Shown here: positions 8,340 to 23,179 of the stretch, one piece after another | Layout: each line of letters starts with the position of its first letter | Position numbering within the stretch: position 1 is the first letter of the stretch | Assembly: GCF_026625865.1 (NCBI RefSeq) | Contig: NZ_CP113067.1 | Coordinates: 248,001-312,000, forward strand | DNA from: Microbacterium sp. SL75 | Lineage (GTDB): Bacteria > Actinomycetota > Actinomycetes > Actinomycetales > Microbacteriaceae | Direction: 5' to 3' | DNA length: 64,000 nt | Program-made: the position numbers and the translations under genes | Notes under the pieces: generated by a model | Told to the model about the DNA's origin: nothing | Databases searched by the model: none | What the model saw: the letters and a program-made list of their open reading frames with translations, nothing else

Positions 8340-9424
8340 CCGTCACGGCCCCCTCGTCCTCCTCTCCCCTGGCACTGACCAGCGGCCAGCTCCCCCGCTT
8401 CATCGAGCCCGCGCTGCTGCTCGGGGTCGCGATCGTCGTGGCCGGAGTCCAGTTCCTGCTCGGGGGATTCAACCTCGCGGCGTGGCTCGTCCTGTCCGCG
8501 GTGCTCTACCTGATCGCCATCGGAGTCGGCTCCTCGATCGTCGAGAACCGCCGCAAGGCCGTGGACCGGGTCGTGCGCGGACTCGTGACCGTCGCGTTCC
8601 TGCTCGCGGTCGCCCCGCTCGTCTCGACCCTGTGGACCGTGGTGTCCAAGGGCCTGGCGGTCGTCAACTGGAACTTCGTCACGCAGGTCGGCGGCACCGC
8701 GTTCAACCCCGACACGCTCGAGGTCGTCGCCACTGCCGGTGCCTGGCAGGCCATCACGGGCACGCTCATCATCACGGGGATCGCAGCCCTCATCTCGGTG
8801 CCGATCGGCGTCCTCGCGGCGGTCTACCTCGTCGAGTACGCGCAGCCGAACAACCCGCTTCGCCGCGCGATCACCTTCCTCGTCGACGTGATGACCGGTA
8901 TCCCCTCGATCGTCGCGGGTCTGTTCGCGTTCTCTCTGTTCAGCCTGGTCGTCGGACCGAAGGCGTTCAGCGGGTTCTCGGCATCCATCGCCCTGTGCGT
9001 GCTCATGATCCCGATCGTCATCCGCTCCACGGAAGAGATGCTGCGTCTGGTCCCCGCCGACCTGCGCGAAGCCTCGCTCGCTCTCGGCGTGCCCCGATCG
9101 GCGACGATCATCAAGGTCGTGCTGCGCACCGCGGCATCGGGGATCATCACCGGTGTCGTCCTGGCCGTCGCCCGCGTGGTCGGGGAAACCGCACCGATCT
9201 TCATCGCCGCGAGCTTCACCGACAACTTCAACGCCAACCCGTTCGAGGGCCCCATGCAGACCCTGCCCGTCATGGCGTACACCGCGTACAGCTTCCCGGG
9301 GCAGGACATCGACGCTTCGCAGGCGAACGCCTGGGGTGCGGCCTTCCTTCTCGTCGTCCTCGTCGTCATCTTCAACCTGATCGCCCGTATCGTGGCGGCG
9401 GTGTTCGCGCCCAAGGCGCGCTGA
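8336..9424 (+). CDS. pstA: phosphate ABC transporter permease PstA
   Basis: Second permease subunit of the phosphate importer, 362 residues. The ABC-docking loop is [18 protein letters not shown]. The N-terminal part adds about three helices before the conserved permease core, as in other actinobacterial PstA proteins. The start ATG at 8336 overlaps the pstC stop by 4 bp, so the two are translationally coupled and probably equimolar. The PstB start follows 20 bp after its stop. Confidence 0.94.
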
Positions 9425-9444
9425 GCCCAGAAAGGCACACACTC

Positions 9445-10224
<780 letters not shown>

Positions 10225-10236
10225 CCAGCTCTCATG

Positions 10237-10264
10237 CGAAGGCCCCGCTCCGGCGGGGCCTTCG
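10237..10264 (+). terminator. pstSCAB terminator (also reads from the opposite side)
   Basis: Perfect 12-bp stem (CGAAGGCCCCGC) with a TCCG loop, 12 bp after the pstB stop. It lies between convergent genes, so it can also end the aminotransferase transcript arriving from the right. Confidence 0.85.
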
Positions 10265-10280
10265 TCGTTCTCTCGAGCCC

Positions 10281-11165
10281 TCAGTCGCGCGGGCTGAGCA
10301 GGTAGGCGTTGAGCTCGTCGGTGAACGCGCGGTCGAGCGCCACCTCGATGCCGTCGACGGAACGGATCGGGGCCGCGAGCCGGACGCTTGAGAGGAGCCA
10401 CGCGGCATCCGCTCTCGTCAGATCTTCGGCCGGCACCGTCTCGTACGTCGTGGCGAAGCCGCGGCCCTCGAGGAAGGCGAACAGGCTGAGCTGCGTCGTC
10501 CCGTGCAGGATGCCGGCCTGAGGTTCCGGCGTGACGAAACGATCCCCGAAGCGCAGGACGACGGATGCCGTGGGCGCCTCGAGCACATGACCGTCGCTCG
10601 TGACGAACACGGCGTCGTCGGCACCGCGTCGCTTCGCCTCGCGGATCGCGGCCATGTTGACCGCGTACGACAGCGTCTTCGCCCCGAGCAGGAGCCAGGG
10701 AGCGCGAGCGGGCACGTCGAGGGCGTAGCCGCGGTCGAGCGTCGCGACGCGGACTCCCTCGGAGCGTGCGCGGTCGTTGTCGGGGGCGTCGGCGAGCGTC
10801 ACCCAGGCGGTCGGGGCGGGCCCGTGCTCGACACCGCGGCTGAGGAGCAGTTTCATGACGTTCTCGCCCTCGCCCGCGGCGCGCGCGGCGCGCTGGATCG
10901 CGACGCGCCATTGCGCGAGGTTCGGCACGGGGAGGTCACAGAGCGCGGCCGAGTGCACCAGACGCGCGAGGTGGGGTTCGACCTCCTGAACGTGCCCGTC
11001 GACGACGCCGAGGCTCTCGAAGATCCCGTCACCGCGCTGTGCGCTCAGCTCGCCCACACCGAGAGCGGGGCCGTCGGGGTCGATCTCCCGCAGGGTGTCG
11101 GAGTAGTCGTTGCGCTGCACGTCGGATGCCACGGGGTCGATCACGAGAGCGAAGCGCCAAGCCAT
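10281..11165 (-). CDS. class IV PLP-dependent enzyme, probable aminodeoxychorismate lyase
   Basis: Fold-type IV PLP enzyme, 294 residues. The PLP lysine is in LLGAKTLSYAVNMAA, and the cofactor-phosphate and substrate regions are seen in DAVFVTSDGHVLEAPTASV and AGILHGTTQ. The N-terminal GDGIFESL motif is typical of the PabC branch, which converts 4-amino-4-deoxychorismate to p-aminobenzoate for folate. Branched-chain or D-amino-acid aminotransferase remain possible, since the family is hard to split by motif. It stands alone without pabA/pabB nearby. ATG start at 11165. Confidence 0.78.
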   Translation of the reverse strand: MAWRFALVIDPVASDVQRNDYSDTLREIDPDGPALGVGELSAQRGDGIFESLGVVDGHVQEVEPHLARLVHSAALCDLPVPNLAQWRVAIQRAARAAGEGENVMKLLLSRGVEHGPAPTAWVTLADAPDNDRARSEGVRVATLDRGYALDVPARAPWLLLGAKTLSYAVNMAAIREAKRRGADDAVFVTSDGHVLEAPTASVVLRFGDRFVTPEPQAGILHGTTQLSLFAFLEGRGFATTYETVPAEDLTRADAAWLLSSVRLAAPIRSVDGIEVALDRAFTDELNAYLLSPRD

Positions 11166-11353
11166 GGGGCGAGCCTACGCCGCACGACCGACACGCCCGA
11201 GCCTTGTCAACGGGGCCGCGGAAGGGAATGTCCGCAGGCGGGTCTTGTTACACTCCTATAGCCGGGCCGCAGTAACCCCGGGCTCCATCTTCTGCCGCTA
11301 TGAGCGGCCATGCGCCGAGAGGCGTTCTGCGGTCCGGCACTTATCTTTTCCGC

Positions 11354-11992
11354 TCAGGTCAGCGCGTCACGGCGCCAGAGAGCGGCGGATGCCGAGAGGT
11401 CTTCCGCGTAGGTGGCGAGGCGCAGGGCCCGCGTCGTCAAGGCCGAGGCCCGTTCCGATTCGGTGTTCTCGTAGTCGTCGGCCAGGTGTGTCGAGCCCGC
11501 GGCCTGCACACGGCAGAACGCCGCTGCGCGGTCGAGGGCGACGGCGAAGTCCCCTTCGAAGAGCCCACGCAGAATCGTGTCGATCAACCGCACGAGTTCT
11601 TCGGGGCCCGCGGGGGCGGGGGCGCCGGCGACCACGGCATCCACCGTCGTGATCTCCACACGTCCGCGTTCGTACAGCAGAGCTGCCGTCGCCGCGTCAT
11701 CGTGGATCATCAGCTGCAGCAGGTAGAGCCGCCAGAGCGCCCCGGGCAGCGATCGGGCGGGCGAGCGCGACCACAGCTCGGCGATGTCGTCGATGCCGTG
11801 GTCGTCGGTGAAGGCGATGAGACGCTCGACCACGTCGACGCTCGGATCGGCCCGCACTCGCGACAGCAGGGCCTGCGCCGTGCTGTGCGCAACCCGCGAT
11901 ACCTCGGCCGGATCCTCCGCGGAGAAGAGACGATCGAACAGCTCGGCGGGACGCCGAACCGGCTTGTGGAACTCGCGGGGGGAATCGCTCAT
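11354..11992 (-). CDS. conserved actinobacterial protein of unknown function
   Basis: A 212-residue mostly alpha-helical protein with no signal peptide or membrane segment. I recall closely similar proteins in Microbacteriaceae (same start FHKPVR and the segment ARSLPGALWRLYLL), sometimes carrying a misleading RNA-polymerase name; no catalytic motif is visible here. It stands alone on the minus strand, 77 bp downstream of rskA and separated from it by a hairpin. Codon use matches the core genome. No function can be assigned. Confidence 0.8.
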   Translation of the reverse strand: MSDSPREFHKPVRRPAELFDRLFSAEDPAEVSRVAHSTAQALLSRVRADPSVDVVERLIAFTDDHGIDDIAELWSRSPARSLPGALWRLYLLQLMIHDDAATAALLYERGRVEITTVDAVVAGAPAPAGPEELVRLIDTILRGLFEGDFAVALDRAAAFCRVQAAGSTHLADDYENTESERASALTTRALRLATYAEDLSASAALWRRDALT

Positions 11993-14589: not shown

Positions 14590-15639
14590 TCAGTCCCCGA
14601 CGGTCCGGATGATCTCCTCCTGGACGAGACGCGCGGCGATCGGCCCGGCGTTCATGAACCACGGGTCGAAGTCGACGGTGACCGTTCGCTTGTCCGCCAC
14701 CGCGCCGAGGGTCGGCCAGAGCGGGGCACTCTCGATGAAGGTCCGCCCCTGCCCGGTTCCGCCGTAGTAGACGCGGTCCGCATCGGCCAGGTCGATCTGC
14801 TCGGCGCTGATCTCCTGCGACGTCTCGTCGAACTGCTGCGACGCCGGGCGCCCCAGGTCGAGATCCTGGGCGATACCTCCCGCGAACGACGGCAGTCCCA
14901 TGATGCGGGTGCGGTCACCGGTCGATTGCAGGAACGACACCGTGGGCTCGCCGGCGGGATGCGTCTGGGCGAAGGCAGCGCTCTCGCCCTGCAGGTCGTC
15001 CAGCACTCCGCGCGCGGTCCCCTCGTCCCCGAGGGCGTCGGCGATGAGGAGGAAGTCGCTCTTCCAATTGACGCCGTTGCCCTTGGTCACGACGGTCGGT
15101 GCGATGGCGGAGAGGGCGTCGTAGAGCTGCGCGCCCCGGGTCGAGTTGATCAGGATGAGGTCGGGGGCGGCCTGTGCGATCGCCTCGAGGTCGGGCTCGG
15201 TGCGTTCGCCGATATCGGCCATGGCATCGAGCGCCGCCGCCTTGTCGGGAAGCGCCTCACGGAGGTATTGCGGCACGAGGCCGCTGTTCTCGGCGCGGGT
15301 CGCGGCGACGGGCACCTGCCCGAGGGAGAGCAGCGCGTCGAGCTGCCCCGTGGAGACGACCGCGATGCGCTGGGGTTCGGCCGCGATCTTCGTCGTTCCC
15401 GCGAAGTGGGTCACCTCACGGGGGAAGACGCCATCCGCCTCGGGCGAGCCCATCCCGGGTTCGAGGTCTCGCGAGACGATCCACTGCCCGGTGGAGCCCG
15501 CCTCGGCATCCACGGTCGAGGGCCCCGTCGCGGGGCCGGCGCACCCGGCCAGGGCCAGGGCGGTCGCGACGACCCCGGTGGCGAGCAGATGTCGGGGACG
15601 AAAACGGGCACGGTGGGACGAGAAACGAAAGAGAGTCAC
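14590..15639 (-). CDS. iron-siderophore ABC transporter substrate-binding lipoprotein
   Basis: Class III (FepB/FecB-like) binding protein, 349 residues, lipobox ALAGC. The start of the mature domain (IAAEPQRIAVVSTGQLDALLSLG) and APDLILINSTRG are typical of periplasmic-binding fold 2 for Fe(III)-siderophores. It feeds the two permeases transcribed in the opposite direction from 15663; no ATPase gene is present here, so a shared FhuC-type ATPase from elsewhere is needed. The GTG at 15639 has no ribosome-binding site and begins one base after an iron box, which suggests a leaderless message. Confidence 0.9.
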   Translation of the reverse strand: MTLFRFSSHRARFRPRHLLATGVVATALALAGCAGPATGPSTVDAEAGSTGQWIVSRDLEPGMGSPEADGVFPREVTHFAGTTKIAAEPQRIAVVSTGQLDALLSLGQVPVAATRAENSGLVPQYLREALPDKAAALDAMADIGERTEPDLEAIAQAAPDLILINSTRGAQLYDALSAIAPTVVTKGNGVNWKSDFLLIADALGDEGTARGVLDDLQGESAAFAQTHPAGEPTVSFLQSTGDRTRIMGLPSFAGGIAQDLDLGRPASQQFDETSQEISAEQIDLADADRVYYGGTGQGRTFIESAPLWPTLGAVADKRTVTVDFDPWFMNAGPIAARLVQEEIIRTVGD

Positions 15640-15640
15640 G

Positions 15641-15660
15641 GGGTTAGGTTATCCTTACCC
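15641..15660. promoter_or_regulatory. DtxR/IdeR-type iron box in a divergent promoter
   Basis: GGGTTAGGTTATCCTTACCC matches the iron box (TTAGGTTAGSCTAACCTAA) in both half-sites with a few changes. It lies between two start codons only 23 bp apart. TATCCT (15650-15655) fits a -10 box 7 bp before ATG 15663, and TAACCT on the other strand lies 6 bp before GTG 15639, so both messages may be leaderless and both would be shut by iron-loaded repressor. Confidence 0.82.
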
Positions 15661-15662
15661 GC

Positions 15663-16715
15663 ATGCTCGACGTCCACCCGTCCGTCACCCCGGGCGTGGT
15701 TCTCCCGGGACGCCGACGACGCTCCTCGCGTGCTCGAGCTCTCTCGATCACCCTCGCCGTCGGTGGCATCCTGTGTCTTCTGATCCTCGCGAGCTTCGCG
15801 GTGGGGTCGCGTGCTCTCGCGCCCTCCGAGGTGTGGTCCGCCCTTCTCACGGATCGACGGGATGCCGTGGGCGTCATCGTCTACGAGCTGCGCCTGCCCC
15901 GCACGCTCACCGCGATCTTCGCCGGGGCCTGCCTCGGCGTCGCGGGAGTGCTCATGCGGGCCGCCACACGAAACCCCCTCGCCGACCCGGGCCTGCTCGG
16001 TGTGAACGCGGGGGCCGCTCTGGGAGTGGTCGTCGCCATCGGGTTCTTCGGCGTCGCGACGGCGAGCGGGTACGTCTGGTTCGCGTTCGCCGGTGCGGCG
16101 GGAGCGTCCTTGCTCGTCCACCTGGCGGCCCGTGGGGACCGCCGTGACGACGCGATCGGCCTCGTTCTCGCGGGCGTCGCGCTCAGCGCCTGTCTCGGCG
16201 CCGTCGTCCGGATCATCACCTTGGTCGACGATGACACCTTCGAGTCGTTCCGTTTCTGGGCGGTCGGCTCGTTCGAGCGGCGCGATCCCGACGTGGCCGC
16301 GCAACTCCTCCCGTTCGCGGTGGCGGGCGTCGTTCTGGCCCTTCTCGTCTCACGCGGCCTCGATCAGCTGCAGCTCGGAAGCGACCTGGCCCGCTCACTC
16401 GGTGTCTCTCCGGCGCTCATCATGCTCGGCGCCGGCGCCGCGATCACCCTGCTCTGCGCCGCCGCGACCTCGGCTGCCGGCCCCCTCGCCTTCATCGGGC
16501 TGCTCGTGGCGCACGCCGTGCGCGGGGCGGTCGGCGGATCCGTGCGCGTCTCACTCCTCCTCGCGGCCGTCACGGGCGCCGCCCTGACCCTGGCGAGCGA
16601 CGTACTGGGACGCGTGATCGCGCTTCCGGGTGAGGTCGAGGCCGGAATCGTTGCCGCCGTCCTCGGCGCCCCGCTGTTGTTGTGGCTCATCCTGCGAAAG
16701 ACGAAGACACCGTGA
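15663..16715 (+). CDS. FecCD-family iron-siderophore permease 1
   Basis: Membrane permease of a siderophore importer, 350 residues, about ten helices. Family landmarks are RLPRTLTAIFAGACLGVAG near the N-terminus, RNPLADPGLLGVNAGAALG, and GPLAFIGLLVAHAVR in the coupling region. It should form a heterodimer with the next gene, whose GTG start overlaps its stop by 4 bp. No ribosome-binding site precedes ATG 15663; a -10-like TATCCT ends 7 bp upstream, as in leaderless genes. Iron control through the box at 15641-15660 is expected. Confidence 0.92.
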   Translation: MLDVHPSVTPGVVLPGRRRRSSRARALSITLAVGGILCLLILASFAVGSRALAPSEVWSALLTDRRDAVGVIVYELRLPRTLTAIFAGACLGVAGVLMRAATRNPLADPGLLGVNAGAALGVVVAIGFFGVATASGYVWFAFAGAAGASLLVHLAARGDRRDDAIGLVLAGVALSACLGAVVRIITLVDDDTFESFRFWAVGSFERRDPDVAAQLLPFAVAGVVLALLVSRGLDQLQLGSDLARSLGVSPALIMLGAGAAITLLCAAATSAAGPLAFIGLLVAHAVRGAVGGSVRVSLLLAAVTGAALTLASDVLGRVIALPGEVEAGIVAAVLGAPLLLWLILRKTKTP

Positions 16716-17728
16716 GCCTGGGAACGCCCCTGCGCACGTCCGCTCGATCCCGGAGGCGTCGCCGGTACGCCCTGGTCCTCGTGACGACCCTGGTCGTGCC
16801 TTCGATCGCCGCCGTCGTGGGCCTCACGACGGGCTCCTTCCACGCGTCGCTGGAGCAAGTGGCATCCGCCCTCACCGGAGAGGGCGACGGACGCACCACC
16901 GTCGTGGTGGTGGGGCTGCGGGTGCCGCGAGTGCTCGCCGCCCTCGCGATCGGCGCTGCCCTCGGGCTCGCCGGCGCGGTGTTCCAGACCCTCGCCCGCA
17001 ATCCGCTCGCGAGTCCCGACATCATCGGGTTCAGCGCCGGATCCGCCACGGGTGCGCTCGTCGGTCTCACACTCATCGCTCCGTCGGCGTCTCCAGCGGC
17101 CGGAGCGTGGATGGGCGGGCTGCTCACCATCGTGATCGTCATGGCCATCGCCCGCAGCGTCGGCGTCTCACGAGAGAGGACGATCCTCGCGGGAATCGCC
17201 CTGTCGACCCTGCTCTCGGCCGTCAACGACTACCTGCTCACCCGGGCTCCCCTCGAAATCGCACGGAATGCGACGCAGTGGCTGCACGGGAGCCTCGCGG
17301 CCACCTCGTACGACGATGTGGGGCTGTTGCTCGTGACGATCGGCATCCTGTCGCTCGTTCTGGTGGTCATGTACCGGGATTTCCGCGCTCTCGAACTGAG
17401 CGATGACACCGCGGTCGCGCTCGGCGTACGCACCGGTCGCGTGCGCCTGCTGCTGATCGTGGTCGCCGCGCTGTTGACGGGCACCGCGACGGCTGTCGCC
17501 GGCCCCATCGGCTTCATCGCCCTCGCGACACCCCAACTCGCCCGACGCACGATGGGAACGAGCGGCATCCCCCTCGTCGGCTCCGCGGTCACCGGCGCGG
17601 CCGTGCTGCTGGTCGCCGACGTGATCGCCCAGCGAGCGCTGGCTCCGCTGCAGATCCCGGTGGGGCTGCTGACCGCCGTCGTCGGCGGCGCGTACCTCTT
17701 CTGGATCGTGTCGCGCCGACGGAGGTGA
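16712..17728 (+). CDS. FecCD-family iron-siderophore permease 2
   Basis: Partner permease, 338 residues, about ten helices. It has RVPRVLAALAIGAALGLAG, RNPLASPDIIGFSAGSATG and GPIGFIALATPQLARR, the same landmarks as permease 1. The GTG at 16712 overlaps the stop of permease 1 (GTGA) and is preferred over an in-frame upstream ATG at 16682 inside the first gene. Together with the lipoprotein on the other strand it forms an importer lacking its own ATPase. Confidence 0.92.
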   Translation: MSLGTPLRTSARSRRRRRYALVLVTTLVVPSIAAVVGLTTGSFHASLEQVASALTGEGDGRTTVVVVGLRVPRVLAALAIGAALGLAGAVFQTLARNPLASPDIIGFSAGSATGALVGLTLIAPSASPAAGAWMGGLLTIVIVMAIARSVGVSRERTILAGIALSTLLSAVNDYLLTRAPLEIARNATQWLHGSLAATSYDDVGLLLVTIGILSLVLVVMYRDFRALELSDDTAVALGVRTGRVRLLLIVVAALLTGTATAVAGPIGFIALATPQLARRTMGTSGIPLVGSAVTGAAVLLVADVIAQRALAPLQIPVGLLTAVVGGAYLFWIVSRRRR

Positions 17729-17767: not shown

Positions 17768-17843
17768 GGGCCTCTAGCTCAGTCGGTAGAGCATCGGACT
17801 TTTAATCCGCGGGTCGTGGGTTCGAGCCCCACGGGGCCCACCA
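17768..17843 (+). tRNA. tRNA-Lys (anticodon TTT)
   Basis: 76-nt cloverleaf with acceptor GGGCCTC/GGGGCCC, D-arm GCTCAGTCGGTAGAGC, anticodon loop CTTTTAA, T-arm GTGGGTTCGAGCCCCAC and an encoded CCA. Its 3' end borders the accessory island, which makes it a candidate integration site; I did not find a second copy of its 3' end in the window. Confidence 0.96.
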
Positions 17844-17911: not shown

Positions 17912-19351
17912 GTGACGACGGGAGAGTTCAGTCGCCCAGACCTCGCGGATCTCATAATTCAGGCAGCGCTGAGCATGCATGAGTTCGGCCATTCGCAACT
18001 CGCAAAGGGTGGCTACTTCCCTCGCGTCGAAGAGGTTCCGTACAGAGAGAATGAGCACGGCTGGCCCTCCGTTACTCGCTCGTTCTACCCATTCGGCGGC
18101 AAGTCCGATTTCGTGGAATGGACAAGCGTCTTTGGGGCTGAGAAGAATGAGACGCTGAAGTTCGACGTCCGGGACGTCCCTGCGCTCGCACCGTTGGTAG
18201 ACGAGGCTATCGCTGACGAGACTCTTGACCGAGCGTTCGACCCGCTCGGAGTGGGCCGACGCGACGAGGCGAAGCGGAGACGTTGGCTAGGAGGGGGCGC
18301 GGTTACCGAAGCCGCAAGACTATTGATGCGCGCGGAGGCGTTGGGGGATGTATCGGAGGCATCGTTACGCACGATCTACGGGCAGTGGGAGCGAGGACAT
18401 TTTGAGAAGGAGATCATCGGCGACCTCCTTTATCCAATCCTTCTTACGCACTTCGATATAGATGACCGGGTGGAAGTCGGGCCCGGAGTCTCAATCGAAC
18501 GCATTCCCGAAGAACTCCACAGAGTGCGAGCGCTGTCGATAGGGCACAGCGAGGTGAACCCGTTCCTTGCTTCCGCTGCAACCCACGCGCTGGTGCTGCA
18601 CGATCAGCGCTTCGACAACTCAGACGGCCCGCTCGCGCGGCGACTCAAATTCGATGTACAGGCGCCGGGGCGCGAGGCGGCAGATCTGTTCTTTCAGGCT
18701 CTGACAGTCGCGAGCGGACACGAGAGCGGATACGCCCAAGTGTGCCTCCGCCCCCACGGCTGGGCGACGGGTTGGCGACTAGATCTCCCACCGCTCGAGC
18801 TTGTTAGTTCGCTGGTTGCGTACCCGCGAGCGTTCAATGGCGGCTGGAACGGCGACGGCGTATCGGTCGACGCCGCAGCGTTAGGAACGCTCCCTGCCTT
18901 GCTCGCAGGCTTACAGGCGACAACGCCGCGAGCGAAGCTAGCGGCGCGAAGGTTGCGTCAGTCGTCAATGCGCGAGCACCACGATGACATCGTGATCGAC
19001 GCATGCATCGGCATCGAAGCGTTGGTGGGCGAGGAACACGACGAGCTAGTCCACCGAATGGGGTTGCGTGCCTCTGTCGCCCTCTCGAAAGTTGGCTGGA
19101 ACGCGAACGCTGCGTATGACGTGCTGAAGAAGGTATACGGACACCGCTCGAAGATCGTTCACGGCACGGAGCCAAAGAACGCAACAATCACGATTGCAGA
19201 CGCGAAGTATCAAGTGGCACCCACCGCGGTCTTTCTGCTCCGATCGCTCCTCCAGGCTCACTTACTCGCAACGCCGCCCTGGAGCCCCGCGGGCCTGGAC
19301 GCTCTTCTGTTCGACGCGATCAACGGTCACGGCGAGGGGCAGCCACAGTGA
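17912..19351 (+). CDS. Apea-like HEPN domain protein
   Basis: A 479-residue protein whose C-terminal third resembles the Apea-like HEPN family: DIVIDACIGIEALVG followed by a helix and YGHRSKIVHG. The R-x4-H motif at about residues 412-417 (RSKIVH) is the catalytic signature of HEPN RNases. The N-terminal 300 residues match nothing I recognise. GTG 17912 has GAGGAG 5 bp upstream; longer starts would run into tRNA-Lys. It has less GC-biased codons than the core and is followed by a membrane protein and a small beta-rich protein in the same direction. A phage-defence or abortive-infection role is plausible from the family and the site, but unproven. Confidence 0.75.
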   Translation: MTTGEFSRPDLADLIIQAALSMHEFGHSQLAKGGYFPRVEEVPYRENEHGWPSVTRSFYPFGGKSDFVEWTSVFGAEKNETLKFDVRDVPALAPLVDEAIADETLDRAFDPLGVGRRDEAKRRRWLGGGAVTEAARLLMRAEALGDVSEASLRTIYGQWERGHFEKEIIGDLLYPILLTHFDIDDRVEVGPGVSIERIPEELHRVRALSIGHSEVNPFLASAATHALVLHDQRFDNSDGPLARRLKFDVQAPGREAADLFFQALTVASGHESGYAQVCLRPHGWATGWRLDLPPLELVSSLVAYPRAFNGGWNGDGVSVDAAALGTLPALLAGLQATTPRAKLAARRLRQSSMREHHDDIVIDACIGIEALVGEEHDELVHRMGLRASVALSKVGWNANAAYDVLKKVYGHRSKIVHGTEPKNATITIADAKYQVAPTAVFLLRSLLQAHLLATPPWSPAGLDALLFDAINGHGEGQPQ

Positions 19352-19433
19352 CCGACCCTCTCCGCTGGCTAGCGTCTCCGGCGGAACCTTGGCGTCGACC
19401 CCAACCGCGTTCGGAAGTCGATAGGGTGTGCGC

Positions 19434-19949
19434 ATGACAGAGGGCGTGGCCAAGAAGCGTCGCACCCTGCGTATCGGCAACGGACAGATCACCCTCGACT
19501 GGAAGTTCTGGCTTGCGTTCGTCGGGGCCGGGGTTATCATCTGGATCGGTTTCAGTTCGAGCACCAAAGAGAACCCATACGGCGGCGTCCTCGCGTCCGT
19601 CTCAACGGTCGTCGGCACGCTCGTCGGCGTCGCATTGCAGTTTCAGCCCGTCCCGCTCGACCAGAGCCCTCGTGCGGAGGGCGCAATCCGAGGACTCGGC
19701 ATCATCGCGCAACTGACGAATGACACCAACGTGGTCGTGGGTCAAGTCGCCACCACCACGAAGGAAGCGCGCACATCAATGGCATTGGCAAGCGTGCAAA
19801 CGAGCCTGACTCAGATCAGCGTCGAACTCCAAATGTCGATGGTGCAATGGGACGGGGTCGCCCCCGGATCGTTGACGAATTTCGAAGAAGATCGCAAGAA
19901 GGGTAGCGATCTACTTCGCAGAATGACGGAGGCAAATGACAGTGAGTGA
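19434..19949 (+). CDS. small membrane protein of unknown function
   Basis: 171 residues: a basic cytoplasmic start, two closely spaced transmembrane helices (about 25-43 and 52-70, FWLAFVGAGVIIWIGF and VLASVSTVVGTLVGVAL), then a long helical, probably coiled-coil tail with many Ser/Thr/Gln. No family recognised. ATG 19434 is chosen; a TAGGGT -10-like box ends 6 bp before it, so it may have its own leaderless message. It overlaps the next gene by 14 bp and lies 82 bp after the HEPN gene. Confidence 0.7.
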   Translation: MTEGVAKKRRTLRIGNGQITLDWKFWLAFVGAGVIIWIGFSSSTKENPYGGVLASVSTVVGTLVGVALQFQPVPLDQSPRAEGAIRGLGIIAQLTNDTNVVVGQVATTTKEARTSMALASVQTSLTQISVELQMSMVQWDGVAPGSLTNFEEDRKKGSDLLRRMTEANDSE

Positions 19950-20466
19950 TTCGAACTCGGCAGAAGTTCCGCGCTTGCGAGGCCAGGTCGCAGAGCTCGT
20001 AAGTGACCGCGAAGTCATCCTCAACCGTGGCTCCAACCACGGCGTGCAAGAGGGCCAGTACTTCGCGATATTAAACCCAGACACCATCGGCATCACCGAT
20101 CCAGAAACCGGCGAGGACCTCGGCGGCATCCGCGTCGTCAAGGTGGTCGTGGTGGCAGTGGAGGTCGCTGCGAAGCTCACACTCGCAAGGACCTTTCGCA
20201 CTAAGACGTTGAACGTCGGCGGATCTAGCACCGCCGCGTCGACACTGGCCGGTGTGAGTTCAATGTTTAACCCTCCAAAGTACGTCGAGACCGTTGAGAA
20301 ACTGACGATCGATAGAAACGCACCGAGGAAGATTTCGCCTTCTGAAAGCGTGGTCAGCAAGGGCGACCCATTCGAAGAGGCCTATGAAGATGAGGTTGAA
20401 GACGTTCGGACCATCACGCTGTTCGAGGCAGATGACCGGTGGCGCGCGGGAGAGGTCGAGAGCTAG
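19936..20466 (+). CDS. small beta-rich protein, FlgT C-terminal-like
   Basis: 176 residues without signal peptide. Residues about 15-80 (LVSDREVILNRGSNHGVQEG, then DPETGEDLG) resemble the small beta-barrel seen in FlgT C-terminal and related domains that repeat in secretion and adhesion proteins; this is recognition by pattern only. The C-terminal part is acidic (EEAYEDEVEDV). Its start overlaps the membrane protein gene by 14 bp, so the two are probably co-translated and may form a complex. Function unknown. Confidence 0.65.
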   Translation: MTVSDSNSAEVPRLRGQVAELVSDREVILNRGSNHGVQEGQYFAILNPDTIGITDPETGEDLGGIRVVKVVVVAVEVAAKLTLARTFRTKTLNVGGSSTAASTLAGVSSMFNPPKYVETVEKLTIDRNAPRKISPSESVVSKGDPFEEAYEDEVEDVRTITLFEADDRWRAGEVES

Positions 20467-21438
20467 CGGTGTGGGACAAACGCCTCGAACTTCGCAACCT
20501 GTTGCGAGTAGTCGGATGGGTACAAGTGTGAGAGTAGATCGTGTCCGTTGTGACGCCGCTTGCGTGGCCCAGTCACCGGCTCACCTGGTACGGCGGGAAG
20601 CCCGCCTCGAGCTATAAACTGGCGGCGGTGTGGCGGAGATCGTGTACGCGGATCGCGGATAGCTGCGCGCGGACCAGGGCGGGCGCGAAGTAGTTGTGAC
20701 GGAAGGTCGCGACGTCCCAGACACGGTCGTAGTCCACACGGTGCGACCCTGGCGTCCGTCCCGGCCAGAACATCGCGTCGCCGCCGCCGGAGCGCAGGTG
20801 TTGGATCTTCGCCGACTTCAGGTCGGCCAGCAGCTTCCGGTCCAGGATCGGCACGTCACGCTATGAGCGGCGGGACCTCGGCGTTCCGACACCCATTCCT
20901 CCACTTCCTGGTCTTGGCTCTTGATCCACTATGCGGCCCGGCCCTTCGCCTCGCGGGCGCGGGCAACGATCGCGTGACATTGAGATCGCATGGTCTTGGC
21001 ATAGCGCGTGTGATTTGTAAGCGATCCATCGTGCAACAGATCGATTCCGCCGTAGGAGGCGCTGCAGCTCGCCTTCTTCCCATCCAGACCATCGTGAAAC
21101 ACAACGCGGCCGACGGCGACGGCACCCAGAGCATGCAGGGACGTCACCCGCCCGGGTCACGCGGCAGAGGTAGTGCGCGAGCGCCTGGCCGAACCCGATG
21201 GCATCCCCGTCACGACGCCTGCTGTCGATGTAGCGCGAGAACAGCTTAGGCCCCCTTCGGCCGTTTCCGTTGGCGCATCCGGCGACCTATCGGCGCGCCT
21301 CTGCTGACAGGCCTTCTCCCGCGCCCCGGCCAGAAGTCCGTCCGACCGCGCCCCGTAAGAACCCATCCGAGGCAATCAGGCCGGCGTCAGGAGACAGCGG
21401 GAAAGTTGGCACTTCTCGCCGGTGGTAAGCGGAGACCG
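20467..21438. other. degenerate region with a recombinase fragment
   Basis: About 970 bp without an intact gene. It holds the tyrosine-recombinase remnant at 20612-20860; the rest (20875-21438) shows no frame with convincing protein features on either strand and looks like decayed mobile-element DNA. Confidence 0.6.
20612..20860 (-). pseudogene. tyrosine recombinase/integrase fragment
   Basis: About 80 residues of a phage-type integrase core. It contains VPILDRKLLADL and the catalytic-core motif IRVHDLRHTAASL, that is the second Arg of the R-H-R-Y set. A TAG stop follows directly after HTAASL, so the C-terminal helix with the nucleophilic tyrosine is gone, and the N-terminal and first catalytic parts are missing upstream. 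It is probably a relic of the enzyme that inserted an element near tRNA-Lys, 2.8 kb away. Confidence 0.75.
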
Positions 21439-21949: not shown

Positions 21950-21998
21950 TGACAACTGATCGTTAGTGCCGGGAGGCGCTGGCGGGGAGGATGTCATC

Positions 21999-22304
21999 AT
22001 GCCCGGTCCTTATCCCAGAGAGTTCCGCGAGGACGTTGTCGCGGTCGCTCGTAGCCGCGAGAGCGGCGTCACTATCAAGCAGGTTGCGACGGGCTTCGGG
22101 ATCAGCGAAGCAACGCTGCAGAACTGGCTCCGCCAGGCCGATGTCGAAGAGGGCAACCGGCCCGGACAAACCGCCGCCGATGCCGCTGAGGCGCGGGAGC
22201 TGAAGAAGCGGATCCGGCTCCTCGAGCAGGAGAACGAGGTCCTCCGCCGTGCGGCGGCGTATCTGTCGCAGGCGAACCTGCGCCTCGGTGGCTCCCCAAA
22301 ATGA
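21999..22304 (+). CDS. IS3-family transposase OrfA
   Basis: 101 residues. Helix-turn-helix DNA-binding part (VTIKQVATGFGISEATLQNW) followed by a leucine-zipper-like helix (LKKRIRLLEQENEVLRRAAAYL) used for multimerisation. ATG 21999 has GGGGAGG upstream. Its stop overlaps the OrfB start (ATGA). In most IS3 elements the two frames are joined by -1 frameshifting into OrfAB; here the junction AAAATGA could serve, but coupling by reinitiation is equally possible. Confidence 0.9.
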   Translation: MPGPYPREFREDVVAVARSRESGVTIKQVATGFGISEATLQNWLRQADVEEGNRPGQTAADAAEARELKKRIRLLEQENEVLRRAAAYLSQANLRLGGSPK

Positions 22305-23179
22305 CGTACCCGCTCGTTGCTGAGCTCGCCGATGCGGGGATCCCCGTGACGGTGTCGTGCCGGGTTCTCAAGCTCGCCCGCCAGCCCTACTACCGGTGGA
22401 AAGGCGACCCGATCCGTGACGCCGACATCGTCCGCGCGTATCGGATCAACGCCCTGCACAACGCTCACCACGACGACCCGACGTTCGGCTACCGATACCT
22501 CGCCGACGAGGCCCGCCGAGCGGGTTGGCGGATGAGCCGCCGGACGGCGTGGAAGCTGTGTTCGCAGGCCGGGATCCTCTCGTCGGCGCAACGCCGCCGG
22601 CGCGGGAAGGGCAAGAAGGCCGGTCCGCCGGTGTTCGATGATCACGTGCAGCGCGTGTTCCGCGCCGACGCACCGAACCGGGTCTGGCTGACCGACATCA
22701 CCGAGCACCGCACCACCACCGAGGGCAAGCTGTACTGCTGCGCGATCAAGGACGTGTTCTCCAACCGGATCGTCGGGTACTCGATCTCGGATCGGATGAC
22801 CGCGAAGCTCGCCGTCGACGCGCTCCGTAACGCCGTCGCCCGCCGCGGTGAGGTCGCCGGGTGCATCCTGCACGCCGACAGGGGTAGCCAATTTCGCAGC
22901 CGAGCCATGGCCCGCGAGCTGCGCCGTCACGACATGGTCGGATCCATGGGCCGAGTCGGCGCGGCCGGGGACAACGCGGCCATGGAGTCGTTCTGGTCGC
23001 TTCTTCGAACGAACGTGCTCAACCAGCAGCGGTGGACGACGCGTCAGGAGCTGCGACTGGCCATCGTGGTCTGGATCGAGCGGAAGTACCACCGCCAACG
23101 AACCCAGGACACCCTCGGCGGCTTGACGCCGATCGAGTTCGAAGCGAAGCTAACCGAGCCGCTCACACTCGCGGCCTAA
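22301..23179 (+). CDS. IS3-family transposase OrfB (DDE integrase core)
   Basis: 292 residues, full length for OrfB. An HTH_21-like N-part (FGYRYLADEARRAGWRMSRR) precedes the retroviral-integrase-like core with the DDE residues in WLTDITEH, HADRGSQF and NAAMESFWSLL. The C-terminus (RRTQDTLGGLTPIEFE-like) is intact. All catalytic residues are present, so the element may still be active. Confidence 0.92.
   Translation: MTYPLVAELADAGIPVTVSCRVLKLARQPYYRWKGDPIRDADIVRAYRINALHNAHHDDPTFGYRYLADEARRAGWRMSRRTAWKLCSQAGILSSAQRRRRGKGKKAGPPVFDDHVQRVFRADAPNRVWLTDITEHRTTTEGKLYCCAIKDVFSNRIVGYSISDRMTAKLAVDALRNAVARRGEVAGCILHADRGSQFRSRAMARELRRHDMVGSMGRVGAAGDNAAMESFWSLLRTNVLNQQRWTTRQELRLAIVVWIERKYHRQRTQDTLGGLTPIEFEAKLTEPLTLAA

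Follow-up and report, generated by a model that had tools for sequence, protein, structure and literature searches.

A probable division of a tRNA-Lys-linked locus of Microbacterium sp. SL75 into an ApeA-like HEPN module and a membrane protein–barrel protein pair

ApeA is a HEPN antiphage system (Gao et al. 2020, as cited in PMC7699616 and PMC10952713), and the portion of PMC3710099 that treats the ApeA/BMEI1217 family of HEPN proteins (2013) describes a conserved Rx4H motif, an N-terminal domain of ~300 aa in some members, a place in restriction-modification operons for some, and an ApeA-NTD1 made mainly of beta strands. According to the title of a 2026 preprint in the reference list of PMC13405049, deoxydinucleotides activate ApeA. 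Here we analyse a window of 64,000 nucleotides (G000:C1:248001-312000) from the 3.44-Mb genome of Microbacterium sp. SL75 (handle G000), in which a tRNA-Lys gene is followed by genes for a HEPN protein, a two-helix membrane protein (P2) and a small beta protein (P3; Table 1). Known proteins with which the latter two can be compared are, for P2, the SLATT proteins, two-helix effectors of nucleotide-signalling defence systems, and, for P3, FlgT and TsaP, which are parts of ring-shaped envelope machines. A sequence-only reading had picked out the three genes as one three-gene unit; the catch was good, and the grouping was probably wrong. We conclude that the HEPN gene and the P2-P3 pair are very probably two separate modules, and we consider it rather likely that a variable tRNA-Lys spot here carries two candidate defence modules, each independent of the other and acting by the mechanisms proposed below.

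The P2-P3 pair recurs as a pair. Protein searches returned 40 P3 rows and 7 P2 rows, the window's own included, and 14 P3 places were read in context. In 11 of the 14 the gene immediately before P3 codes for a membrane protein: seven actinobacterial places (the window, the viral contig L016, genomes G554, G699, G373 and G217, and a Glutamicibacter plasmid), plasmids of the archaeon Haladaptatus, of Psychrobacter and of Candidatus Megaera, and the Lacticaseibacillus phage P7.1. The partner and P3 genes overlap by 4–35 bp in 10 of these 11 (with homologue-supported starts for the window, G373 and G699), the Megaera genes being separated by 11 bp. The P7.1 partner has a single hydrophobic helix, and each of the other ten partners has two. 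We take the P2 proteins of the seven actinobacterial pairs as one family on the basis of alignment: alignment A4 unites six of them (all except that of Glutamicibacter), the distant ones at 16–31% identity to the window's P2, and hhalign joins the Glutamicibacter P2 to the family with a probability of 95. Over ten pairs the similarities of P2 and of P3 correlate (Spearman 0.88, 0 of 2000 permutations), with three of the pairings assumed from equal contig sizes; three P2 and three P3 relatives lie on equally sized contigs (2907, 5200 and 381124), which suggests that the same contigs carry both. Judged by profile similarity, with A3-profile scores (P3 profile) from 273 bits in the window to 39.7 bits in Megaera across the eleven pairs, P3 is the element common to all of them.

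Some observations weigh against our reading of the pair. Beyond the seven actinobacterial pairs, the comparison with P2 covered the Haladaptatus partner, which has no demonstrable homology to it (hhalign probability 0.5); the Psychrobacter and Megaera partners match one another at E 1e-5. Three Gordonia phages (OneUp, BrutonGaster and DatBoi) carry a weak P3 relative (E 0.006–0.05; A3-profile scores 34.3 for DatBoi and 25.2 for OneUp) with no membrane gene directly before it; for OneUp and BrutonGaster the preceding genes were checked for hydrophobic helices, and in DatBoi a tRNA precedes the P3 relative. The hhalign result for the Haladaptatus partner against the barrel profile (probability 1.1) was rejected as a sign that this partner is a second barrel.

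To ask whether the HEPN gene belongs with the pair is to compare where each occurs. We used samples of 398 genomes of the family and 396 of the order, which overlap, repeated draws being taken as the same genomes. Among the 398 family genomes, P3 was found in three (G000, G217, G373), P2 in one (G000; A2, our P2 profile, does not detect the divergent P2 genes that G217 and G373 carry) and the HEPN profile in three (G000, G304, G386); among the 396 order genomes, P3 was found in three (G000, G554, G699) and the HEPN profile in five (G000, G437, G446, G591, G602). Thus G000 is the only genome of both samples with both HEPN and P3, and the other P3 carriers (G217, G373, G554 and G699) are not among the HEPN-profile matches of the same-sized draws. 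The reverse search found P3 in none of five HEPN-profile carriers (G304, G386, Georgenia, Jiangella and Rhodococcus, for the last of which the plasmid and not the chromosome was searched), while the same query recovers G000 as a positive control; G386 is to be dropped from the five, its match being a glycosyltransferase. HEPN genes in other contexts, an outcome that the sequence-only reading had named beforehand as telling against a unit, occur in Georgenia, in Jiangella and on the Rhodococcus plasmid, among other neighbours and with no barrel gene. With so few carriers, the evidence disfavours a tight unit more strongly than it does a loose association.

The pair also appears to have its own start of transcription. 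In PMC3160421, the part on leaderless bacterial genes describes boxes ~12 bp upstream of the start as their mark, in the form TANNNT in high-GC groups. We found TANNNT 6–7 nt before the P2 start in five of the seven actinobacterial pairs (window, G554, G699, G373, G217). As a background, across the window plus four loci, the signature stands before 37 of 7208 ATG/GTG triplets, and before the starts of 21 of 296 mechanical open reading frames (ORFs) at least 150 aa long. On this signature we predict that the P2-P3 pair has its own leaderless promoter and, since the box lies inside the 82-bp gap between the HEPN and P2 genes, that the pair can be transcribed alone. Against this stand the absence of the signature from L016 and the Glutamicibacter plasmid, and the G699 P2 start, which is the second in-frame start and was chosen by us. 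Against separation itself, the HEPN and P2 genes share a strand across that short gap, a simple scan found no terminator in it, so co-transcription or read-through is possible, and a TIR gene 65 bp upstream of the Glutamicibacter pair gives a layout resembling that of the window.

The HEPN gene was correctly called in the sequence-only reading, with its GTG start preceded by GAGGAG. The protein search scored the 8000 candidates sharing most words and gave 51 relatives, of which 45 were aligned with the window's protein (P0001, P0045–P0048 and P0050 were left out). Two marks of the HEPN superfamily, an Rx4-6H motif and an upstream conserved acidic residue, are present: R412/H417 and E369 are each invariant in all 46 aligned sequences, and E369, Y409, R412, S413, H417 and G418 are invariant across 10 of 10 divergent HEPN parts. 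The label 'Apea-like' holds in part, being borne out by the motif, by the source names of some relatives and by a weak collinear alignment to Ec2ApeA, and not by any Pfam or PADLOC model. A profile of the 10 divergent HEPN parts, compared with PDB, had its top rows at E 0.065 for a CRISPR-associated protein and at E 0.11 for E. coli Ec2ApeA, the latter collinear over both conserved blocks (residues 353–381 and 486–520). Like ApeA in the Ec2ApeA structures 9hxb, 9hxd and 9hxi, the window's protein has a ~340-residue N-terminal region and then a HEPN part with xIExL and R-x4-H in the same order; unlike it, the window's protein has 479 rather than 593 aa, and the match is weak and shown for the HEPN part. 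The likeness to the ApeA/BMEI1217 family as set out in the relevant part of PMC3710099 lies in the Rx4H motif, the long N-terminal domain and the restriction-modification association of some members, while the mostly-beta ApeA-NTD1 is described for that family and the N-terminus in the window is known from sequence alone.

Several results speak against a firm assignment to ApeA. An E of 0.11 carries no significance by itself, so the Ec2ApeA match is a lead rather than proof of membership; no link between the N-terminal regions of the window's protein and of ApeA was demonstrated; and the HEPN models of Pfam and PADLOC-DB 2.0.0 matched none of the 46 sequences, the presence of an ApeA model in PADLOC-DB being unchecked. 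In PADLOC the only matches of the 46 were two to non-HEPN families, each from a single member (E 0.015 and 0.045), and the window's HEPN, P2 and P3 proteins matched 0 families of PADLOC 2.0.0 at E≤1. We nevertheless regard the window's HEPN protein as a divergent ApeA-like protein, an addition to a known family type.

Full-length HEPN relatives from the genome-contig scan numbered two, in Georgenia, next to type I restriction-modification-like genes (read from translations), and in Jiangella, next to conjugation-like or mobile-element-like genes (from translations, by eye). A Rhodococcus plasmid carries a third relative; a RAMP-superfamily protein is encoded nearby, and an Abi-family protein ~6.6 kb further. 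In this plasmid (pUSK13_2, L017), the three-gene run after the HEPN gene (9683–11702) includes the RAMP-superfamily CRISPR-associated protein, and no further CRISPR gene is annotated in the 17-kb stretch. G304, G437, G446, G591, G602 and L015 match the A1 profile (HEPN profile) in the HEPN part only and are counted as distant HEPN proteins rather than orthologues. One of these, a distant R-x4-H HEPN protein at 9396–10832 on the minus strand of L036 (G446:C7:12500-32400), adjoins Type_ISP methylase and PLD-helicase genes, with mobile-element-like genes (by eye) on its other side. Two sets of A1 matches were rejected: G386 (E 6e-4), the glycosyltransferase mentioned above, and knotted HP0242-type PDB proteins (E 5e-4 and 0.0014), taken as chance in a helical stretch.

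P2 was rightly described as a two-helix membrane protein, with hydrophobic segments at residues ~19–44 and 48–71, and P48, L125 and W139 are invariant in 11 aligned P2 sequences. It resembles the SLATT effectors in having two membrane helices and then a helical tail, and differs from them in that SLATT models matched none of 11 P2 relatives at E≤5 (the program's filters drop most matches above ~0.1); we therefore rejected P2 as a SLATT effector. P2 relatives also matched ApoL (E 0.095) and other families weakly, as well as helical chains in PDB at a best E of 0.12; we took all of these for chance. The overlap of P2 and P3 exists as had been described, its length of 14 bp assuming the ATG at 19936; we prefer 8 bp because the GTG at 19942 codes for the residue with which close homologues start (the 174-aa P0059; MSD... 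starts). Sequences left out of the profiles were P0059, P0097 and P0098 for A3 and P0052 and P0056 for A2.

P3 belongs by profile match with the FlgT_C/TsaP beta domains. PF16538 (FlgT_C) is matched by 17 of 38 P3 members at E≤0.1 (best 7.7e-4; the window's P3 at E 0.0095 and 16.8 bits, under the Pfam cut-off of 27), the broad P3 profile matches two TsaP chains, 6ve2_O and 3jc8_Ta (E 1.5e-6 and 2.8e-6), and the phage family phrog_27728 is matched by all 38. Unlike FlgT and TsaP, P3 is little beyond this domain, and its gene sits on mobile DNA together with that of a membrane partner. Pfam gave no LysM match for P3. The window's three proteins had no match in the phage collection, its P3 had none among plasmids at 1e-5, and scans of viral contigs, whether with subgroups of P3 or with individual distant members, gave L016 again or nothing. 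Our literature search listed no title on a FlgT-type two-gene module, though one may still be in print. Of note, P0095 (304 aa) has a different architecture: behind its P3 domain, the C-terminal region matches HEAT/leucine-rich-variant repeats.

The surroundings of the pair copies are mobile and often contain defence genes. Ten neighbour proteins were picked by eye for PADLOC, and six matched, in five loci outside the window: SIR2 PDC-S65 (G699), AbiEi (G554), PDC-S32 that also matches Pfam AbiJ_NTD4 (G373), TIR PDC-S35 (Glutamicibacter), and an MkoA-like helicase with PDC-S02/Mrr (Haladaptatus). In Megaera an annotated VapC/Phd pair lies nearby, in L016 a tape-measure-like gene is adjacent (by eye), and in P7.1 the pair lies between the repressor/HSDR_N region and the integrase (HSDR_N by Pfam match, the rest by eye). 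The passage on phage TP-J34 in PMC3952083 places the superinfection exclusion gene ltp next to int, a position like that of the P7.1 pair; P7.1 differs in having two genes, and the exclusion function is that of ltp in TP-J34. Counting against a defence reading are the hand-picking of neighbours and the four that PADLOC left unmatched, one each from G554, G217, P7.1 and Psychrobacter. Because there is no background rate for such neighbours, the defence genes near the pair copies support a defence role only suggestively.

Two of these loci hold further features. Next to the G217 pair and divergent from it (L012, G217:C1, 10352–12115) lie genes for two proteins, one zinc-ribbon-like and the other small, with an R-x4-H motif and a RiboL-PSP HEPN match that is weak and falls below the Pfam cut-off. 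In G373:C22 (L011/L005) the pair lies in a stretch with a serine recombinase and the AbiJ-type gene, and one end has two similar N-terminal pieces of a gene that we take to be of thiamine-binding type, as if an element had duplicated its target.

The tRNA-Lys gene was found just upstream of the HEPN gene, as had been stated. The HEPN, P2 and P3 genes have a G+C of 0.58–0.61, compared with 0.685 for the window, and a G+C at third codon positions of 0.70–0.74, compared with 0.86 in the single neighbouring transporter gene measured, which fits imported DNA. The same tRNA-Lys (73–76 of 76 bases) occurs in five of six same-genus genomes inspected, and the genes downstream differ in each (by eye); the best match in the sixth is 64 of 76 bases. 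The tRNA-Lys site is thus a variable spot. Of the features expected of a tRNA-integrated island, an integrase and a direct repeat of the tRNA 3' end, the window shows an integrase remnant: the last 12 nt of the tRNA-Lys have no second exact copy in the window, and the last 14 nt have none with up to two mismatches. The 'dead integrase' of the sequence-only reading stands as far as its 80-aa remnant, which ends in HDLRHTAASL, is concerned; as Pfam gave no match at E≤0.1, it is this motif that supplies the name. On the other side of the tRNA, a siderophore-type binding protein and two permease genes (window 14590–17728) lie between a fasciclin-like lipoprotein gene and the tRNA-Lys, and in five relatives the ORF just before the tRNA-Lys resembles the antisense of the fasciclin-like lipoprotein gene, so the left side may vary too (by eye).

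Table 1. Features of the HEPN and P2-P3 locus, in window coordinates.
Feature	Position	Strand	Remarks
tRNA-Lys (ttt)	17768..17843	+	just upstream of the HEPN gene
HEPN protein, 479 aa	17912..19351	+	GTG start; N-terminal region ~340 aa, HEPN part ~341-440 with E369 and R412-x4-H417
TAGGGT, a TANNNT (-10-like) box; predicted leaderless promoter of the P2-P3 pair	19422..19427	+	6 nt before the P2 ATG
P2, two-helix membrane protein, 171 aa	19434..19949	+	C-terminal helical tail predicted by eye
P3, FlgT_C/TsaP-type beta protein	19942..20466	+	174 aa from GTG 19942; 176 aa from ATG 19936
Remnant, 80 aa, with C-terminal HDLRHT	20612..20854	-	taken as what is left of a tyrosine integrase C-terminus, of which HDLRHT is a motif
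Two overlapping ORFs, presumably an IS3-type transposase pair	21966..23179	+	bounds the patch; family assigned from the sequence

We propose the following roles for the two modules. The first, for which we observe a gene with an invariant motif, a conserved E369 and other neighbours in other records, is a candidate stand-alone ApeA-like HEPN RNase. Its ~340-residue N-terminal part would sense a phage-induced cue, perhaps a nucleotide ligand, a suggestion drawn from the preprint title on deoxydinucleotide activation of ApeA; the sensor would switch on a C-terminal HEPN dimer, which would cut RNA through R412/H417 and so arrest growth. We judge antiphage RNase action by the HEPN protein to be somewhat better than an even prospect. 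In the second module, for which we observe conserved order, overlap, the promoter signature in most related pairs, and surroundings that are mobile and often carry defence genes, P2 would sit in the membrane by a two-helix hairpin with its helical tail in the cytoplasm, and P3 would be a soluble FlgT_C/TsaP-type barrel whose level is matched to P2 by overlapping translation. P3 may dock on P2, and the membrane-tethered complex may block or abort infection, by superinfection exclusion or membrane-acting abortive infection.

Our leading, and still tentative, proposal for the pair is that it is a mobile antiphage (exclusion or abortive infection) module without prior description, in which an immune complex at the membrane has taken up a docking barrel of flagellar or pilus-ring type and combines it with membrane partners of more than one kind. 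This candidate module is found in Actinomycetota, a Bacillota phage, Pseudomonadota plasmids and a haloarchaeal plasmid. The anti-phage flavour of the sequence-only reading is plausible for each part, given the ApeA-like traits of the HEPN protein and the defence genes often near the pair; the three genes as one system are not supported.

Of the alternatives, a toxin-antitoxin or plasmid/prophage maintenance module, with P2 as membrane toxin and P3 as antidote, would suit the small, overlapping genes and the occurrence of the pair on 6.6-kb, 7.2-kb and 11.5-kb plasmids and in a phage lysogeny region; we hold it unlikely, as P3 has no match to a DNA-binding-type domain and the Gordonia phages have weak barrel relatives without a membrane partner. 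Also improbable is a housekeeping role in the cell envelope or for the mobile element, with the barrel docked to a scaffold in the membrane in the manner of FlgT or TsaP and no part in phage defence. The profile relationships to TsaP and FlgT_C speak for such a role; the very patchy occurrence of P3 (three of 398 family and three of 396 order genomes, each count including G000) and its mobile, often defence-gene-bearing surroundings speak against it. We give rather little credence to the pair as a modular accessory of interchangeable effectors (HEPN, TIR, SIR2 and others), for example a membrane sensor or immunity partner: varied effector or defence genes do lie by the pairs (HEPN in the window, TIR, SIR2, AbiEi, AbiJ-type, helicase with Mrr nuclease), but their orientation and distance vary (upstream, downstream, or, in G373, at ~2 kb), defence islands in general are expected to hold such genes, and the one neighbour each tested for Psychrobacter and P7.1 had no PADLOC match. 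Finally, one three-gene system, in which a HEPN nuclease would work with the membrane protein, its tether or effector, under regulation by the barrel protein, was in large part proposed by the sequence-only reading and is very unlikely, since the shared strand, the short gap in which a simple scan found no terminator, the alike base composition of the three genes and the twofold occurrence of an effector-P2-P3 layout (window and Glutamicibacter) are set against HEPN relatives without P3, four other P3 genomes without a HEPN-profile match, a predicted promoter within the gap, and a neighbour of the pair that changes from locus to locus.

The pair is the more interesting half of the locus, having no PADLOC match and being present in bacteria and an archaeon. 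If it is an immune module, it adds a small two-gene membrane system, unmatched in PADLOC-DB 2.0.0, that is common to bacteria, phage and an archaeal plasmid, and it gives a role to phrog_27728, a phage family of unknown function. The HEPN gene, for its part, would extend the ApeA-like RNases to a divergent actinobacterial branch with a candidate sensor at the N-terminus.

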